A DNA stretch of 64,000 nucleotides from the NCBI GenBank assembly GCA_018433585.1, contig JAHDQW010000005.1, positions 1 through 64,000 on the forward strand, in the 5' to 3' direction. Numbering within the stretch: position 1 is the stretch's first letter; each line of letters starts with the position of its first letter. The DNA comes from Candidatus Praeruminimicrobium purgamenti. GTDB lineage: Bacteria > Elusimicrobiota > Endomicrobiia > Endomicrobiales > Endomicrobiaceae. Made by a program: the position numbers and the translations under genes. Below, in pieces: positions 3,102 to 14,461 of this stretch. The notes under the pieces were generated by a model. It saw nothing but the letters and a program-made list of their open reading frames with translations, did not search any database and was not told the DNA's origin.

Positions 3102-4403
3102 TTATTTTTGTAAAAAATCTTTAGCCCTTAATTGCTTATGAAAAGTAATTGCAAATCTGTGAGCTTCATCTCTTACAGCCTGCAGCAATCGTAAAGCTAA
3201 AAGATTTTTCCCTAAAATAAGAGGCTTGCTTTTACCGGTCATAAAAATTTCTTCATTTTGCTTTGCAAGAGATATCAAAGGAATATATATTCCTATTTCA
3301 TTTAAAGCCGCTTCTGCCGAAGCCAACTGTCCCTTACCTCCGTCAACGACAATTAAATCCGGAAATTTTTCATTTTTTCTAACAATTGAAGAATATCTTC
3401 TGAAAACAGCTTCTTTCATCATTGCAAAATCATTTATTCCGGAAACAGTTTCTATCTTAAATTTTCTGTAACCGCTTTTATCGGGCTTACCGTTAGTAAA
3501 TTTAACCATTGAAGCTACCGGATTTGTTCCCGATGTATTCGAAATGTCAAAACATTCTATAACAACAGGCAAGCTTTTTAATTTCAAAACCTGCTTCAAT
3601 TCCTGCAAAGCATCAGTCTTGGAAATATACTGATTTATCTCTTCAATATTAATTTCAGTAACAGTAACCCTTTCAGCCATTGACTTTATTGCAAATAATC
3701 TGTCTCTTATTTCTTTTGCTTTTTCGTATTCCTGATTTTTACTTTCCAAAAGCATCTGCTTTTCCCAAATTTTTTCCAATTTATTAAACTTGCCTTTTAA
3801 AAACAATTCTGTTTCTTTTAAATTATTTTTATAAACTTTTGAGGATATATGTCCCATACAAGGAGCGTAACATAAATCCGTATGATAATAAAGACACGAT
3901 TTTACTTTTGATATGTCAGGCAATAGATTTTGTGAAAAAGACATTTTGCAAGGTCTTATTTTAAATATTTTATTCAGCCAGAAAATTAATTTTTTAATAT
4001 AAGTTATCTGCGGGTACGGACCGAAATATAAACCGCCGTCGTTAAGAAGTTTTCTGGAAATTATCAATCTTGGGAAATCTTCATTCATAGTTAATTTAAT
4101 ATACGGATAAGACTTGTCATCTTTCCACATTGAGTTAAAATGCGGCTGCACTTTTTTTATCAATTCTCGTTCTACAAGAAGAGCTTCTCTCTCAGAAGAA
4201 CAAAGAATATAATTGATTGTTGTCATTGCGCTTATTATGGAAGCCGATTTGCTGTTTATGTCAGAATGGAAATATGAAGTAATTCTGTTTTTTAAATCTT
4301 TTGCTTTGCCGATATATATAATATTTGCGGCAGAATCTCTCATTATATATACGCCTGGAAGATGAGGAATATTCTCGGTATAATTATTGACAGTTTTTTG
4401 CAT
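3102..4403 (-). CDS. uvrC: UvrC-type excinuclease subunit, shortened form
   Basis: UvrC makes the two incisions flanking a DNA lesion in UvrABC nucleotide excision repair. The 433-residue protein has an N-terminal GIY-YIG nuclease (PGVYIM and IYIGKAK within the first 40 residues), a UVR UvrB-interaction helix around residue 215, and an RNase H-like second nuclease (ECFDISNTSGTNPVAS; DEAHRFA). Family members are usually near 600 residues. Here the stretch between the UVR motif and the RNase H domain is compressed, and the protein stops right after the RNase H domain, so the C-terminal helix-hairpin-helix tandem is absent. The terminator follows directly, with no remnant of the missing part. 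The start overlaps murJ by 20 bases, suggesting translational coupling. Confidence 0.88.
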   Translation of the reverse strand: MQKTVNNYTENIPHLPGVYIMRDSAANIIYIGKAKDLKNRITSYFHSDINSKSASIISAMTTINYILCSSEREALLVERELIKKVQPHFNSMWKDDKSYPYIKLTMNEDFPRLIISRKLLNDGGLYFGPYPQITYIKKLIFWLNKIFKIRPCKMSFSQNLLPDISKVKSCLYYHTDLCYAPCMGHISSKVYKNNLKETELFLKGKFNKLEKIWEKQMLLESKNQEYEKAKEIRDRLFAIKSMAERVTVTEINIEEINQYISKTDALQELKQVLKLKSLPVVIECFDISNTSGTNPVASMVKFTNGKPDKSGYRKFKIETVSGINDFAMMKEAVFRRYSSIVRKNEKFPDLIVVDGGKGQLASAEAALNEIGIYIPLISLAKQNEEIFMTGKSKPLILGKNLLALRLLQAVRDEAHRFAITFHKQLRAKDFLQK

Positions 4404-6395: not shown

Positions 6396-7118
6396 TTACT
6401 TTGCTCTTGCTATAGTAACGGCATAAACTTTTTTTGCTTTAGATTTCTTTAAAATTTTTGAGCACTGGTTGATTGTAGTGCAGGTTGTAGCTACATCATC
6501 AACCAGTAAAACCTTTTTACCTTTTATAAAATCTGCGTACTTGTCGCTTAAAACAAAATTATTCTCTAAATTTTTTTCTCTTTCTTGACGTCCAAGCCCG
6601 AATTGTGCTTTTGTGTTTTTTTTACGGAACAAAATATCTTTACATACGGGTTTATTTAAATATCTTCCTATATGTTTTGCAAGTAAAAAAGACTGGTTGT
6701 ATCCTCTCCTGAATTGTTTTATAAAATGGAGAGGTACTGGAATAATAATATCTATGTCTTTGCACCATTCTTCTTTTATTATTAATTTTGACATAGAGCA
6801 TGCAAAATCAGCCGCCAAAAAAGTCCTGTCCGAATATTTGAATTTTTTTATAACTTTTTTTATTTTGTCTTGATAAACATAAGGAGCTTTTAGCACTTCA
6901 AAATATATATTTTTGCCGTCTTTACAGTCATAACAATGAGCCCCTCCGTCTTTCAACGGAGCCGAGCATCTCTTGCATATAAGTCCTTTGTTTTTTTCAA
7001 ATCCGTCAAAACAAGAATTACAAATATTGTTTTTTCCGTTAAAAGGCAATGTTTTCCCGCAGGAAGCGCAAGTCCTTGGAAAAATTATTGACATTAAAAA
7101 TAATATTATATTTTTCAT
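6396..7118 (-). CDS. comF: ComF family phosphoribosyltransferase-like protein
   Basis: The 240-residue protein has the ComF layout. An N-terminal zinc-binding part carries paired Cys motifs (CASC, CNSC, CKRC, CYDC within the first 65 residues). A PRTase-fold domain follows, with IPVPLH, the RRGYNQ stretch and the PRPP-binding loop VLLVDDVATTCTT. ComF proteins help import single-stranded DNA in naturally competent bacteria, but they are also widespread in species with no known competence. No other competence gene is seen nearby. It is the last gene of the minus-strand run and starts 2 bases after the sprA-like stop codon. Confidence 0.85.
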   Translation of the reverse strand: MKNIILFLMSIIFPRTCASCGKTLPFNGKNNICNSCFDGFEKNKGLICKRCSAPLKDGGAHCYDCKDGKNIYFEVLKAPYVYQDKIKKVIKKFKYSDRTFLAADFACSMSKLIIKEEWCKDIDIIIPVPLHFIKQFRRGYNQSFLLAKHIGRYLNKPVCKDILFRKKNTKAQFGLGRQEREKNLENNFVLSDKYADFIKGKKVLLVDDVATTCTTINQCSKILKKSKAKKVYAVTIARAK

Positions 7119-7120
7119 TA

Positions 7121-10100
7121 TTAAAACTGAATTGTTAACTTGCTTGCAAGCTCGATTAACGTATAATTTTGATCAGGAACATAAGTATACACATATCTTG
7201 ACCATCCGGCTCCTAAAGTAAACCTGAAATTCTTTGATATTTCATAATCCGTAGATATCTTTAAGCCGTAATTCTGCAAATTATTATCCTCCACATTAAC
7301 GGCAGAACTCTGAGTTTTATAAAAAATGCTTGAATCAAATATTATTCTGTTTTTTAGCGGAATAACTCCGAAAAAAGGCACCTTCATACCTGACGGGAAC
7401 AACAAATCAGATGTAATTTGCCCCGTAACATTATTGGCAAAAATCTGGCTTGATAAATTCCCTGTTGAATTTTTTTCCCATTGCTGGGAATTTTCATATC
7501 TTAAACTCATTCTCCATTGTTTGATATCTAACGCTCCCTGTACCGCCCATTCAAAAGTTTCACCTTCGCCGATTAATATTCTTTTTGAAAGATCAGTTTC
7601 TTGTGTCGTAGTTATTGCTGTTTCAAAAAGAGTGTCAACTTTTTTTAAAATTTTAAATTTATAATCTCCGCCGTACATTATGCTGTCTTCGTAAGAAGCA
7701 TTTGCAACAGTACTTGTTTTCTTGTTATGTTTAAGATTCAGCTGCGTATCTGAAATAAGCTGCGTATCAAATATTTTTTCAAGTCTTGAAAATCCGATTA
7801 ATATATCAGGCCATGTTTTTGTATATGCATCTTTATAAGTTCCGGTAATGTACGATTCTTCCTCACCTTCCGTAAAAGTAAAGCTTAAAGTCATAGTTTT
7901 TATAGGCAAAAGAGCTCCCTGTAAATCAAAAGTTTCAAAAGGATTGTATCTACCGATAATTCTCCTGTCGTCTCTCTGAACAACACTTTTTACAGTATAC
8001 GTACTCGTAGAATAAGTAGGCAAAATATCTTTCATTAAATTGCCTCTTATCCACAATTTATCGACCGCAAAACCTATTGACGAAAAATCTTTTTCAACAT
8101 TTGAATAAGCATCGGAATCCTGCATTCTGTAAGACGTTGTAAAATTCAACGATTTTAAATACGGCGAATTTACAATATCTCTTGCCTGAAGGTTCCATGT
8201 AAATTCTGTAGTTCCAGTCCTTTCTATATATTTTTTTTGCCCCGGATAAATAATATTTGCCGTATCCGAGCTGTAATTTAAATCATAAGTTTCCTTTGTA
8301 TTAACGCTGTAAATAACACTTGGCTGAAACCATTTGGCAACCTGGAAATTTAAACTTGCTCCTATATCCTGATTCAAAGATTTATCATAATCTACTTCCT
8401 GTTTTTCAAAATATTCTTTATTTTTTTCATTGACTTTTGTAAGAACATATCCCGGAGAAAATATAACTTTGTCAAATATCTTAAAAGGAGTCTTAAATCC
8501 CCAAGTTTCAGTTTTTTCAAGAGTTAAGAAATCATCAACATCCATATACTTTCTGAAAGTATCCAAATCTAAAAAAGTATTTGAATCCTGAATAGGTTCA
8601 TCAGGATATACTTTATAAAATGAATTTTTAACTTTATAATCCCATGTAATACTTGTAGGAAGAATATCTAACTCAACCGGATTCAAGTAGATCAAATTTG
8701 CATATACAGTCTCGGCATCTTCAAGCCTTTCTATTTTTTCTGTGTCTTTAATTGCTCTTGTATATTGAAGAGAAATTTTAGGTAAATCAGTACCGGCTGA
8801 CAAAACTGTTTCCGCCTGTCCTGTATAAGCGACAACTCTTCCTTCGTCAAGAACTGAAACCGTGTCGGATTGATTTTCCAAAGCTAAAGGCGTAATAGTT
8901 TTAGTCTTAGTAAGAGAAGCTTTTAAAGGCAAAACTTCTATGCCGTCAAGATTAATGCCTTTAAAAGTAACGGCTGCATAATCTTCCAGATATTCTCTGT
9001 TATAAGTGCCCGGAGCAAATGTTTCAAAATCCTTGTCTATACTTTTTCTGTTCAAATCCAAAGTAACCGGACCGACGTTGCCGGTTCCGTCCCATTTTAA
9101 ATTAAGTCCGACCTTCCAAGCATTACCGTCTTTACTTTTAGCTCCCTTTACATGTATTTCATTTACCCAAATTTCACCGGCATCAGCCTGTTTTGTTTTT
9201 ATCCCGGTTTGAATAAAAGACACCTGCTGCAGGGAAGGTGTTCCTGTCTTTGAAATATGAGTATCTTCGCTGCTCCATTCAGCAGTAGCTCCATATCCTG
9301 TTTGTTTTATTGAAATTAACGTCCATTTACCTTTTAAATCTTCGGTTATAGGCAGCGTATATTGATAGTAGTTATCGCTGTCTCCTCCGACTCTCATTAT
9401 GAAATCGCTTTCATTGCCGGAAGAAATCGCGGTGGATGAAGAAACATACAGGAAAAATTTAAAATTTTCATAATTTGAAATATTTATCGCGCTTGTATAC
9501 GTTGTTTTTGCATAAAATTCATCATTTGAAGAACTCGAGTCATAAAGCAAATCCAGCGATTGTTCGTCTCTTACAGTACCGGCATTTATATCGTATAAAC
9601 TTTGATAATCAGAATTCGTCAGCAATGATACATATTTTGGATCATCTCTGCCTATTGAAGATATTTCGAAATCGCTTAACGAATTAGATTTAATTGAAGT
9701 CCATTTGTTTCCGACGACAGAAACTTTGCCTATTGTCATGATTCCCTGCCTGTCTCCGGACAAAGTTATTCTTGCAATTTTTATATTTCTCCACAAATCT
9801 TTGTCAGCATCGGTTGTAAGATTCAGAGGAATTTGTATTTTCTGCCAGGTAGTTTTTGTTTTATCAGCATAATCGTTTAAAATAAAACTGTTAAGATTAG
9901 ATTCATACTTGTCCAAAATATTGTTTGTATTAATGTCTTCTGTATCCAGTTTACCGTTATTTGCCCCTATCTTAGATACTCCGTAAGCAGCAGTTTTATT
10001 TTTAAAACTTCTTCCTATATCTTCCCACGGGCTTATTATTCCGTCTCCGTTAGTGTCTTCTGTATCAAGAACTGAATTCCTGTCGGAATCTTCATTTATT

Positions 10101-12820
10101 GAAGATGCATAATCAAGCTGAACCGTGGTATTATTTAAATCTCCTTTTATCCATATTTCCAAATACAATTTATCCGAGAAATCATATCCTGCCGAAGAAA
10201 CTATCTGAGCCATTGAGACATGCTCGCATGCAGTAAGATCATAAGTTAAATCCATAACCTGCTGTTTTTCTCCTGAAATAATTTCAAGATTCGGATCTAT
10301 AGTTTTTTTCTCCACATCATAATTTTTCCATGTCAAAGCACTTATGTCATAACCTGTTGCAATACTGTTTGGAGTGGATGAATAAAACCAATTGTCGTAT
10401 ATCAAAGCCAATGAATCTTCCTGCTTAGCTCCCTCCATTGATTCAACAATTGCTTTTCCGGTCGTATTTTCTATATATTGGCTTTTTGCATATTCGGCAG
10501 AAAGAGACATTTTCAATCCGTCAGTAACGTCTACATCTTTAATTTTAGTATCTACTTCTCCGACGAACGTACTTGAAGGAGTATTATATAAATCAGGCAA
10601 AGCAGTCTCCTGAGCGGAGAATTCATAAATAAAACTTCCTCCGACAGATATATTGTTATTAAAATCATATTGAGATCTTAAGCCTACAAGAGTAGATCCT
10701 GCAGAAGTTCCTCCCAGAGGAGAATAATCATAAGAAATATCTATAACCGAACTTTCTTTTATAAGATCTTCTTTTAAAATAGTTACTATACCTACATCGT
10801 AATCAATGGTATAATCGTCATTTATTTTTAATGTTTTGCCGTCTATTACCACTTTTTCAGACATAGGGACGATATCGCTTCTAAGGTTAAATATTTTTAC
10901 TTTATATTGATATTCCGTAATAAAATTATATCTGTGAGTAGCTGAAGTGTACAAATCGTCATGCATAGGCAAACCGTCTATAGGCTGTAAATTAAATATT
11001 CCGTTATCGAAATCAACGTTAATATTTGAATCATAACCGTCAACATTCGGAAATTTAGGGACAGACTTGCCTCCCGGATTTATTATCACAGGAACAGAAT
11101 TATTCAAATCCCTGACTTCAAGTATAAAATTATCTCTGCCGTTATATTTAGTAATTTGATAATTGCCGAGGCTGTAAAAAGTGTACAGCTCAGTTGATAA
11201 TGACGAAGTATTGTTGACGTCTTTTATCACCTGCGGACTTCCGGCAGAAACCGTGCTGCTGTCTGACAGCCATGTCCCGTCCGTAAACTGATAATCTATG
11301 GCGACCACATACTGTTTTGACAAAGTATTTTTGAAAGTTAAAACGCCCGTATTATAATCTATCGTATAATCTGTTCCGGCCACAAGTTTGATGAAGTTTC
11401 CGCTATAAGGTGCATACGATAAATTTTTCATATATTGTAAAGGCGTTGATGTGGAAATGACTATATAATCTGATGCTGAAACTTTACCTTTATCAAGATA
11501 AACTTTTGCCGTACCCTGCTTGATACTCTTTGAAGAATCTTTTATTATGTAATAGTATTTTAATTGGACATACGCCGTATCGGCTATTGTTTTCTTTTCG
11601 GTTTTTGTATTTCCTTTAAACTGTTTGCTTTCAGAATATCCTTTTGTCTTAGAAAAAAATGCATTTGTAGAGAGACCTTTATACTTTGTATCTATCTTAG
11701 CTCCGAATAACTGTTTTGAATATCCTGAAAATTCAGTGCTTGGCAGCAAAATATCTATATCTCCGAACGCTGCTTGCTGTATAAATTCATCCTTATCTCC
11801 TTTATACACAATAGATATATCTTTTTTATCATCTTGAGTATCGTCAAAATCAATATTAAGGTCGAGTTTGCTTCCGACCTTTCCTTTTATTTTCATCTGC
11901 AATTCCTGATTCATTGAAAACGATGAAGAATTCGTTCTCTTTCCGGACTCTTCTTTATCGTACAATGTAGCCGCATAATCTATGCCTATGAGCTTTCTCC
12001 CGGAAAGCAGCAGCTGCGATTGAAAAGGAAGATTTGAAATCACGCTTCCTGAAGCAGATGAATTTTCGACATTTTGTTTTTTATTTCCTTTTTGCTCCGG
12101 CTTTTCATCAGGAATAAAAGTTGAAGTTGATTTTAACAATTTATCTTCATTCTTCTCTTCTATTTTTTCAATTTTATCCAGTGCTTCTCTTCCTGCTATA
12201 TTTTGAGACGTCGTGGTAGGAACGGCAAGCTCATAAAAACTCTCTTTTTTTGACTCTTCTATAATAGCGCCTGACTGGTAATAAGTTCCCAAATCATTTT
12301 CGTCAAATGTTGTTGAGGAAACAGATATCTTTTTTTGCTTCACTGTCGATGTTGAATTCTGGACTGGAAAAGCTGCAGTTGAAACAGTTATCATATCTTT
12401 TGCAGTTAAATACGGAGCCTCTATTACTGTGCTTGAAGAATTTTCAATAGTCCCGACTGCTGATACTGTCGAAACTAAAATATTATTATTTTGTACAGCC
12501 GCGGATGAATTTGCAACTCCCGTGTTTGACGATACTGAAACTAAAGCCGTTTCGGAAGAAACATATATTGATGCTGAATCAAAAACATCTGTACTTTGAG
12601 TTACATTAAAAGAAACAGACGGCGTTGAGACGGATAAATTATTCACTTCGGCAGGATAATTTGAATTTATATTGTCATTGTTTAACAGCTTCTCGATTTT
12701 TGTATCATCTGAGATTTTTACTGAATCTGTAGATATATATATATCCGCAGAATAATTTTCCGCATAAATATAAATACAACAGCACAATATTAATAAAAAC
12801 AAAATTATTTTTTGTCTCAC
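7121..12820 (-). CDS. SprA-like giant outer-membrane translocon/gliding protein
   Basis: The 1899-residue protein has a signal peptide, then a long Ser/Thr/Val-rich low-complexity region (about residues 60-260), then a very long beta-rich region ending in a C-terminal Phe typical of outer-membrane barrels. Around residues 310-390 it shows the pattern of SprA proteins: FDDTQDDKKDISIVYKGDKDE, then AAFGDIDI, and SKQLFGAKID. It also carries repeated segments of the type DYTIDYNTGVLTF. SprA (Sov) forms the outer-membrane channel of the type IX secretion system in Bacteroidota. Acidic Asp/Asn-rich loops resembling EF-hand or dockerin calcium loops lie around residues 905-973. The start is GTG with only a weak Shine-Dalgarno. 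The family call is from memory of SprA sequence style; the secretion role is inferred. Confidence 0.72.
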   Translation of the reverse strand: MRQKIILFLLILCCCIYIYAENYSADIYISTDSVKISDDTKIEKLLNNDNINSNYPAEVNNLSVSTPSVSFNVTQSTDVFDSASIYVSSETALVSVSSNTGVANSSAAVQNNNILVSTVSAVGTIENSSSTVIEAPYLTAKDMITVSTAAFPVQNSTSTVKQKKISVSSTTFDENDLGTYYQSGAIIEESKKESFYELAVPTTTSQNIAGREALDKIEKIEEKNEDKLLKSTSTFIPDEKPEQKGNKKQNVENSSASGSVISNLPFQSQLLLSGRKLIGIDYAATLYDKEESGKRTNSSSFSMNQELQMKIKGKVGSKLDLNIDFDDTQDDKKDISIVYKGDKDEFIQQAAFGDIDILLPSTEFSGYSKQLFGAKIDTKYKGLSTNAFFSKTKGYSESKQFKGNTKTEKKTIADTAYVQLKYYYIIKDSSKSIKQGTAKVYLDKGKVSASDYIVISTSTPLQYMKNLSYAPYSGNFIKLVAGTDYTIDYNTGVLTFKNTLSKQYVVAIDYQFTDGTWLSDSSTVSAGSPQVIKDVNNTSSLSTELYTFYSLGNYQITKYNGRDNFILEVRDLNNSVPVIINPGGKSVPKFPNVDGYDSNINVDFDNGIFNLQPIDGLPMHDDLYTSATHRYNFITEYQYKVKIFNLRSDIVPMSEKVVIDGKTLKINDDYTIDYDVGIVTILKEDLIKESSVIDISYDYSPLGGTSAGSTLVGLRSQYDFNNNISVGGSFIYEFSAQETALPDLYNTPSSTFVGEVDTKIKDVDVTDGLKMSLSAEYAKSQYIENTTGKAIVESMEGAKQEDSLALIYDNWFYSSTPNSIATGYDISALTWKNYDVEKKTIDPNLEIISGEKQQVMDLTYDLTACEHVSMAQIVSSAGYDFSDKLYLEIWIKGDLNNTTVQLDYASSINEDSDRNSVLDTEDTNGDGIISPWEDIGRSFKNKTAAYGVSKIGANNGKLDTEDINTNNILDKYESNLNSFILNDYADKTKTTWQKIQIPLNLTTDADKDLWRNIKIARITLSGDRQGIMTIGKVSVVGNKWTSIKSNSLSDFEISSIGRDDPKYVSLLTNSDYQSLYDINAGTVRDEQSLDLLYDSSSSNDEFYAKTTYTSAINISNYENFKFFLYVSSSTAISSGNESDFIMRVGGDSDNYYQYTLPITEDLKGKWTLISIKQTGYGATAEWSSEDTHISKTGTPSLQQVSFIQTGIKTKQADAGEIWVNEIHVKGAKSKDGNAWKVGLNLKWDGTGNVGPVTLDLNRKSIDKDFETFAPGTYNREYLEDYAAVTFKGINLDGIEVLPLKASLTKTKTITPLALENQSDTVSVLDEGRVVAYTGQAETVLSAGTDLPKISLQYTRAIKDTEKIERLEDAETVYANLIYLNPVELDILPTSITWDYKVKNSFYKVYPDEPIQDSNTFLDLDTFRKYMDVDDFLTLEKTETWGFKTPFKIFDKVIFSPGYVLTKVNEKNKEYFEKQEVDYDKSLNQDIGASLNFQVAKWFQPSVIYSVNTKETYDLNYSSDTANIIYPGQKKYIERTGTTEFTWNLQARDIVNSPYLKSLNFTTSYRMQDSDAYSNVEKDFSSIGFAVDKLWIRGNLMKDILPTYSTSTYTVKSVVQRDDRRIIGRYNPFETFDLQGALLPIKTMTLSFTFTEGEEESYITGTYKDAYTKTWPDILIGFSRLEKIFDTQLISDTQLNLKHNKKTSTVANASYEDSIMYGGDYKFKILKKVDTLFETAITTTQETDLSKRILIGEGETFEWAVQGALDIKQWRMSLRYENSQQWEKNSTGNLSSQIFANNVTGQITSDLLFPSGMKVPFFGVIPLKNRIIFDSSIFYKTQSSAVNVEDNNLQNYGLKISTDYEISKNFRFTLGAGWSRYVYTYVPDQNYTLIELASKLTIQF

Positions 12821-12838: not shown

Positions 12839-14461
12839 TTAATCATATAAATTTATATTAAAATATTTAATATCCTTTTTATTTACGCGCCATTTATTAA
12901 AATTCCATCCTATGCCTGCCGGAGCAAGCTCAACTCCGTTAAACCTTTTATGTATTGCCACTAAATTTTCAGGATAATATAAAAATATGCACGGTATATC
13001 ATCTCTCATTATATCCTGTATTCTATGATATGCTTTTATTCTTTTTGACTTGTCAAAAGTACTTCTTCCTTTTACAAGAAGACTGTCTACTTCTTTGTTT
13101 TTATACGACATAAAATTATACTGCCCTTTATTGGTTTGTTCGGAATGCCATAATGAGTATTGGTCCGGATCAACAGCCGTATTCCATCCCAAAATCAACG
13201 CATCAAAATTTTTCTCGTTGACATATTGGTTAATAAAAGTGCTCCATTCTAAAATTCTTACATTTACTTTTAAACCTATCTGCTTAAGCTGCTCTTGTAT
13301 AATCTGTGCCGTAAGCTCTCTTGCTTTATTTCCCTGATTTGTAATGATATTTATTTCGAACTGCTGTCCTTTGTATAATAACATCCCGTTTTTATCTTTT
13401 GTAAAACCTATATCAGACAATAACTTTACGGCTTTTGCTTTATCATATTGGTAAGGTTTTATCTCTTTATATGCCCATGACTGAGGAGGATATATTCCGT
13501 TTGCCTCTTTTCCTATTCCTGACAAAACACCCTGAATAATATCTTTTTTATTAATCGCATGGCTTACAGCCTGTCTAAACTTCACATTGTTATACGGTTC
13601 TTTCAACAAATTGAATCCCAAAAAAGTAAAACTAAAAGCCGGATATCTATATTTTTTGTAATTCTTAAAAAAAACGTCATACGCATTCCATTGGTCCGAT
13701 GTCAACGAAAGCTCATCTATTGTTTCATTTCTTAATTCTAAAAACTGAACCGACTGATCTGGTATTATTCTGTATAAATAAGCAGCAATATAAGGTTTCC
13801 CTTCAAAATATTTCGGATTGGCCTCTAAAATAATCTTTTGGTCTGTTATCCATTTCTTAAGTATATAAGGACCTGTGCCGACAGGCATCCTGTTATATTT
13901 TGACGTATTTATATCTTCTTTTTCAAAAATATGTTTAGGAATAATTCCGATACACCAACTTTCAAGAATAGGAGCAAAAGGACGATCGTATGTTACGATA
14001 AAAGAATAATTGTCTATTACTTTAAATTCTTTTATCATAAGATAATTTGAAGAAAAAGGAGTTTTTGTTTTTTCGTCAATAAGTTTTTGATATGTAAATT
14101 GAACATCTTGAACGGTAAAAGGCTGCCCGTCATGCCATAAAATATTTTTTTTCAATTTAAACAAAATTGATAAACCATTGTTTAAAATCTTATAATCTTC
14201 CGCTAAATCACAAACCAGATTAAGATCTTTATCATATTTCAGCAAACCGTTATAAATCAAAGTATTTATCGACGATGACGCATTATCACATGCAAGAACA
14301 GGATTTAAGTATATTGCATCTCCTATTCCTGTCGTAACATACATATCGCAACACTTATCACTTATATTTTTTTGAATATTGCCGCCGTTATGCATTTTAC
14401 ACGACAATAATGTCATAAAAATTACAGCCAACAATAAATTCCTGTTAAAAAACATTTTCAC
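12839..14461 (-). CDS. Oligopeptide-binding lipoprotein (SBP family 5)
   Basis: The 540-residue protein is an extracytoplasmic solute-binding protein of the OppA/DppA/NikA family. A lipobox LLSC places the lipidated Cys at residue 21. Family segments include LKKNILWHDGQPFTVQDVQFTYQKL, the GTGPY core, and a region with KFRQAVSHAINK. Such proteins capture peptides (sometimes nickel, sugars or signals) for an ABC importer. No permease or ATPase genes lie next to it, so its partner is elsewhere or it acts as a sensor or receptor. The start overlaps the rmuC stop by four bases (ATGA), so they are translationally coupled. Confidence 0.9.
   Translation of the reverse strand: MKMFFNRNLLLAVIFMTLLSCKMHNGGNIQKNISDKCCDMYVTTGIGDAIYLNPVLACDNASSSINTLIYNGLLKYDKDLNLVCDLAEDYKILNNGLSILFKLKKNILWHDGQPFTVQDVQFTYQKLIDEKTKTPFSSNYLMIKEFKVIDNYSFIVTYDRPFAPILESWCIGIIPKHIFEKEDINTSKYNRMPVGTGPYILKKWITDQKIILEANPKYFEGKPYIAAYLYRIIPDQSVQFLELRNETIDELSLTSDQWNAYDVFFKNYKKYRYPAFSFTFLGFNLLKEPYNNVKFRQAVSHAINKKDIIQGVLSGIGKEANGIYPPQSWAYKEIKPYQYDKAKAVKLLSDIGFTKDKNGMLLYKGQQFEINIITNQGNKARELTAQIIQEQLKQIGLKVNVRILEWSTFINQYVNEKNFDALILGWNTAVDPDQYSLWHSEQTNKGQYNFMSYKNKEVDSLLVKGRSTFDKSKRIKAYHRIQDIMRDDIPCIFLYYPENLVAIHKRFNGVELAPAGIGWNFNKWRVNKKDIKYFNINLYD

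Follow-up and report, generated by a model that had tools for sequence, protein, structure and literature searches.

Does a very large open reading frame in a member of the Elusimicrobiota encode the channel of a secretion machine known from quite different bacteria? The window analysed here is a stretch of 64,000 nucleotides from Candidatus Praeruminimicrobium purgamenti (Endomicrobiaceae; assembly GCA_018433585.1, contig JAHDQW010000005.1, positions 1 to 64,000), and an earlier note, made from its letters alone, had proposed that a 1899-residue product encoded there resembles SprA, the outer-membrane channel of the type IX secretion system (T9SS). A systematic survey reported T9SS in Bacteroidetes only (PMC4793230), and a 2024 paper describes T9SS genes as absent outside the Fibrobacteres-Chlorobi-Bacteroidetes (FCB) group (PMC11285876). 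We conclude that the sprA-like gene probably encodes the outer-membrane translocon of an export pathway composed of SprA, PorV-family shuttles and cargo with a C-terminal domain (CTD), ancestral in the Elusimicrobiota and lacking the known GldKLMN motor. The set looks like a pared-down form of a well-known machine.

The frame opens with a GTG at 12820 and continues uninterrupted to a stop at 7121, giving 1899 codons with the following layout:

7121..12820, (-) strand: sprA-like gene, putative outer-membrane translocon protein, 1899 aa (open reading frame, profile and model evidence).
12761..12820, (-) strand: predicted signal peptide (MRQKIILFLLILCCCIYIYA), from its sequence and a similar start in locus L143.
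12038..12760, (-) strand: variable linker rich in Ser, Thr and Asn, residues 21-261, with low conservation across the phylum.
11546..11950, (-) strand: best SprA profile stretch, residues 291-425, holding all three segments quoted in the earlier note.
8831..12037, (-) strand: modelled fragment A (residues 262-1330), with SprA structures as its four best PDB matches, E from 1e-50 to 3e-35.
7124..10543, (-) strand: modelled fragment B (residues 760-1899), likewise with SprA structures as its four best PDB matches, E from 1e-35 to 2e-27.
7124..9184, (-) strand: most of the barrel, residues 1213-1899, with 28 strands of at least 10 residues and the C-terminal end ...LTIQF.

The product begins with MRQKIILFLLILCCCIYIYAEN, a signal-peptide-like start common to its closest relative, L143. 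NCBIfam TIGR04189, the profile for SprA and Sov, matches it at 137.1 bits (E 3.8e-40) in four stretches, and the three segments that had been quoted as SprA-like all occur in the translation, at residues ~325-376 within the best of those stretches, an agreement well above chance. We also used an alignment of 24 sequences (23 of them relatives, from over a dozen families and 27-65% identical to the window protein); TIGR04189 matches all 24 aligned relatives, with a best E of 3.6e-54, and Pfam SprA_N matches four of the 24 (best 2e-10). Searched against the PDB, the profile built from this alignment returned a sole match, the SprA of Flavobacterium johnsoniae (6h3i, E 2.5e-41), in four stretches that follow the same order in both proteins and span SprA residues 151-1570. 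A single-sequence phmmer search of the window protein against the PDB found nothing, as did a Pfam scan, and both were judged too insensitive. Two other domain signals were set aside: a match to the phage tail-tube model NF052337 (9.7e-6), which is a beta motif of ~50 residues, below cut-off and present in 14 of the 24 relatives, was dismissed, and matches to CBM11, which represent jelly-roll-like domains within the SprA-like protein, were rejected as a functional clue.

The predicted fold leads to the same family. AlphaFold models of the two overlapping fragments, each from 94-sequence alignments, reached a pLDDT of 84.4 and pTM of 0.67 for fragment A and 87.9 and 0.57 for fragment B, and for each the top four PDB matches were the four SprA structures (6h3i, 6h3j, 8gl6, 8gl8). 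The next match had an E-value of 2.5e-7 or 2.9e-5 and a TM-score of 0.09-0.20, a gap of at least 20 orders of magnitude for both fragments, so that the only credible fold matches are to SprA and the proposed homology is upheld by sequence and structure alike. The root-mean-square deviation over the full SprA alignment is large (12-17 Å), which we ascribe to the partial barrels in the fragment models. The C-terminus is a long series of strands, as the earlier note's barrel-type ending implied, and by our own count there are ~36 long barrel-type strands over the two fragments, 28 after residue 1213 and 8 before it, a total like that of SprA; deciding which N-terminal strands to count as barrel strands is a matter of judgement. 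We give virtually no credence to the idea that an unrelated large outer-membrane barrel, of the LptD, TonB receptor or SusC type, merely contains SprA-like words by chance: Foldseek does return weak matches to LptD and TonB receptors, but at E 1e-5 or worse and TM ~0.2, against 1e-35 and TM 0.5 for SprA, and the profile-to-PDB match and both fragment structure searches refute it. In its signal peptide, in conserved stretches that are collinear over most of its length and in its large barrel, the Elusimicrobiota protein resembles SprA of F. johnsoniae and Sov of Porphyromonas gingivalis. It is shorter than the former (~1800-1900 against 2403 residues), with 11-14% identity in the structure alignment. 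The N-terminus of F. johnsoniae SprA binds SkpA.

How did such a gene come to be in this phylum? Its closest public relatives are Endomicrobiaceae, the top match being 80% identical, in agreement with the Elusimicrobiota-like host suspected from the sequence, and of the 80 top-scoring stretches, out of 446 related ones, all are Elusimicrobiota by title except two titled just 'bacterium'. A genome search found the SprA-like gene in 254 of 295 Elusimicrobiota genomes, mostly as an open frame of ~1800 aa; within its own family, the genomes that lack it are for the most part small, come mostly from one genus and look like those of reduced endosymbionts. A tree of 62 SprA-like sequences from within the phylum can be explained with 16 changes of family label, the fewest possible with 17 families, and because it follows families in this way the gene appears old, vertically inherited inside the phylum and ancestral to it. 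The family-by-family descent within the phylum speaks against horizontal transfer from Bacteroidota, but the tree, with no Bacteroidota rows in it, leaves room for an ancient transfer.

A channel alone does not make a pathway, and the window itself offers no help: besides the sprA-like gene its 64 kb hold no other T9SS gene, and the earlier note was correct that GldKLMN, PorV and cargo genes are missing from it. PorV and CTD cargo lie elsewhere in the same genome. The PorV/PorQ family (NF033709) is represented there by eight loci, three of them with a beta-barrel domain over the cut-off and one 24 kb beyond the window end, and in the phylum by 139 of 150 genomes, 90 of them over the cut-off. 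Across these 150 genomes PorV is present in all 129 that are SprA-positive, and SprA in none of the 11 that are PorV-negative (Fisher 2e-11, uncorrected for relatedness). Unlike the known members of the PorV/PorQ family, the Elusimicrobiota proteins occur as many paralogues per genome, several of which (580-720 aa) bear a C-terminal TPR array after the barrel, a fusion confirmed by profile. The CTD profile TIGR04183 has matches in 54 of 80 genomes and four in the genome of the window, where our own CTD profile identifies five strong CTD proteins; four of these five were among the sequences used to build that profile, TIGR04183 is independent of it, and single CTD proteins were confirmed by hmmscan. 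Of these CTD genes, all but one lie directly beside a PorV gene (four of five; chance ~4e-9):

L083: M6 metalloprotease, 845 aa, a CTD protein encoded after a PorV gene.
L081: 139-aa CTD protein, after a PorV-TPR gene.
L084: 388-aa CTD protein, before a PorV-TPR gene.
L085: 411-aa CTD protein, before a PorV2-like gene.

The pairing of CTD and PorV genes suggests a separate cargo for each carrier, in which case the paralogues would be dedicated to the cargo encoded beside them, in line with the specialised PorV-type shuttles reported in F. johnsoniae (PMC12618676). In five Endomicrobium-type loci the linkage extends to the channel gene, in the tandem order CTD gene, PorV-TPR fusion, 7 bp, sprA. 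In 10 genomes, which represent at least eight families, an M6 metalloprotease gene lies no more than 8 kb from sprA, in several of these with lptG and lptF in between, and the five such proteases that were inspected all have CTD-like C-termini. The earlier note had left the choice between a T9SS-like and an independent exporter; PorV and CTD cargo elsewhere in the genome favour the former over the latter. The set is like the T9SS of Bacteroidota in having SprA, PorV-family shuttles and CTD cargo; some of the cargo proteins are M6-type metalloproteases, relatives of M6 proteins that depend on T9SS.

Two further observations concern these loci. The order M6 gene (with a CTD-like end), lptG, lptF, sprA, comF recurs in several families (L066, L067, L068, L071, L076), and it would be speculation that an M6 protease near sprA acts as a maturation enzyme replacing PorU. 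A PorV-TPR fusion and a CTD gene stand beside an apparent sensor kinase and response regulators in the genome of the window (L081:5244-10935) and in three related loci (L221, L222, L223), where dedicated regulation of the set by these neighbours is possible.

The genes that flank sprA raise the question of whether the homologue has another job, in lipid or envelope-protein export or insertion, its linkage to PorV and CTD proteins being incidental. In the window the adjoining genes are:

6396..7118, (-) strand: comF, 2 bp downstream of sprA; adjoins sprA in 74 of 115 loci.
12839..14461, (-) strand: family 5 solute-binding lipoprotein gene, 18 bp upstream of sprA.

We consider such another job improbable. 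In its favour, divergent lptF and lptG adjoin sprA in 68 of 115 loci, the genes that seem to share its operon (comF, rmuC and the solute-binding protein gene) are uninformative on secretion, and some genomes have SprA and PorV with no CTD matches; these must be set against the presence of PorV in every one of the 129 SprA genomes, the tandems of CTD gene, PorV-TPR gene and sprA, the M6 genes near sprA and the fact that reduced genomes have lost SprA together with PorV. The neighbours vary across the phylum, comF and lptFG excepted, and we therefore rejected comF, rmuC, the solute-binding protein and a TPR protein as functional partners. The solute-binding lipoprotein gene adjoins sprA in 9 of the 115 loci, in close relatives only, with no sign of a role, and comF is probably a passenger.

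If the parts act as their counterparts do, we infer that SprA, PorV and the CTD proteins form one working pathway in which the CTDs are the export signals; by analogy, channel, carrier and signal would all be represented in the Elusimicrobiota. In F. johnsoniae, SprA has a side opening at which PorV docks and binds the substrate CTD in the pore, energy input drives the PorV-substrate pair out, and without the motor substrates are trapped in the channel; the TPR protein SprE, needed for release, is a separate protein (PMC10994853). On this pattern, cargo would cross the inner membrane via Sec, its C-terminal beta-sandwich signal, the CTD, would enter the large SprA barrel, and a PorV-family beta-barrel would dock at the side opening, bind the CTD and carry the cargo outward to the cell surface. 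The TPR arrays that follow the PorV barrel, at a C-terminal end that presumably lies in the periplasm, may replace SprE/PorW.

Several observations weigh against a motorless SprA/PorV/CTD pathway. With its 137.1 bits the window protein falls below the curated equivalog cut-off of TIGR04189 (200 bits), which none of the 295 phylum genomes reaches, and SprA_N found no match either in the window protein by Pfam scan or by genome search; of the profile searches that had been suggested, the family-level one gave a match and the SprA_N one none, and the protein belongs to the SprA family in its wider sense and is not a TIGR04189 equivalog. In the gut Elusimicrobiaceae type of family (f13), SprA and a few PorV genes are accompanied by few or no CTD profile matches, and the cargo signal there may differ from the CTD profile. 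In two genomes of ~99% completeness (G046, G116), PorV genes are numerous and an M6 protease is present with no SprA match, perhaps through assembly gaps. FlgD-Ig-like models score on the same CTDs, so that some of these could be ordinary Ig-like domains. Lastly, the negative results for the motor rest on profiles that were silent in every control genome and so are of unproven sensitivity: GldM was found in 0 of 120 genomes, GldN in 0 of 60, and GldL in none but two weak, below-cut-off cases among 120 (G031, G109; none in the genome of the window); GldK was not searched. The proposed genome-wide search thus recovered PorV and CTD cargo and left GldL, GldM and GldN undetected.

The PorU-type sortase fold (peptidase C25, a broad Pfam family) was found in 1 of 60 genomes and not in that of the window. 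With neither this fold nor GldL, GldM or GldN found, unlike in the T9SS of Bacteroidota, it is probable, as judged by profiles, that the established motor and the anchoring sortase are missing or have diverged past recognition. Divergence is the substance of the main rival, which we regard as rather unlikely: that a full T9SS of the usual kind is present, with a motor, a ring and further components beyond the reach of the profiles used. If even SprA stays under the cut-off of its family, small components, GldL and GldM for example, could easily be overlooked, and the lack of a positive control for GldM and GldN and the two weak GldL matches fit this; yet like searches readily detect SprA, PorV and CTDs phylum-wide while GldM and GldN stay at zero, and even so broad a family as peptidase C25 appears only once in 60 genomes. 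We entertain as a tentative reading, less likely than not, that the SprA/PorV/CTD translocon never had or has lost GldKLMN, that force or release comes otherwise (from TolQR-TolA spanning the periplasm, PorV-fused TPR arrays or cargo folding), and that the T9SS motor was a later, Bacteroidota-side addition to an older channel.

The sole MotA/ExbB-family gene found in the genome of the window is tolQ, and a single TolQ motor may for that reason serve both Tol and TonB. The gene lies in a cluster of tolR, tolQ, tolB, tolA/tonB, cpoB and pal with an adjoining TonB-dependent receptor (L244:6869-12985). A role of TolQ in powering export, like an SprE-like role of the PorV-TPR proteins, would be no more than an inference.

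Literature searches, limited to open-licence papers, turned up none that treats T9SS in Elusimicrobiota, and neither the SprA/PorV/CTD set nor its conservation nor the missing motor seems to have been reported; automated annotation may already label PorV and CTD proteins, so parts of the set may have been noticed. A phylum-wide, vertically inherited set outside the FCB group widens the known range of this translocon and would be a candidate surface-display route for the phylum, with proteases among its predicted cargo. If the motor is truly missing, an export channel has been separated from its energy source, providing a natural test of the motor's need.

Elsewhere in the window, positions 3102-4403 encode a short UvrC of 433 aa. 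It has GIY-YIG, UVR and RNase H domains, seems to fall below the usual model length (574 positions) and is of the same length in L143.
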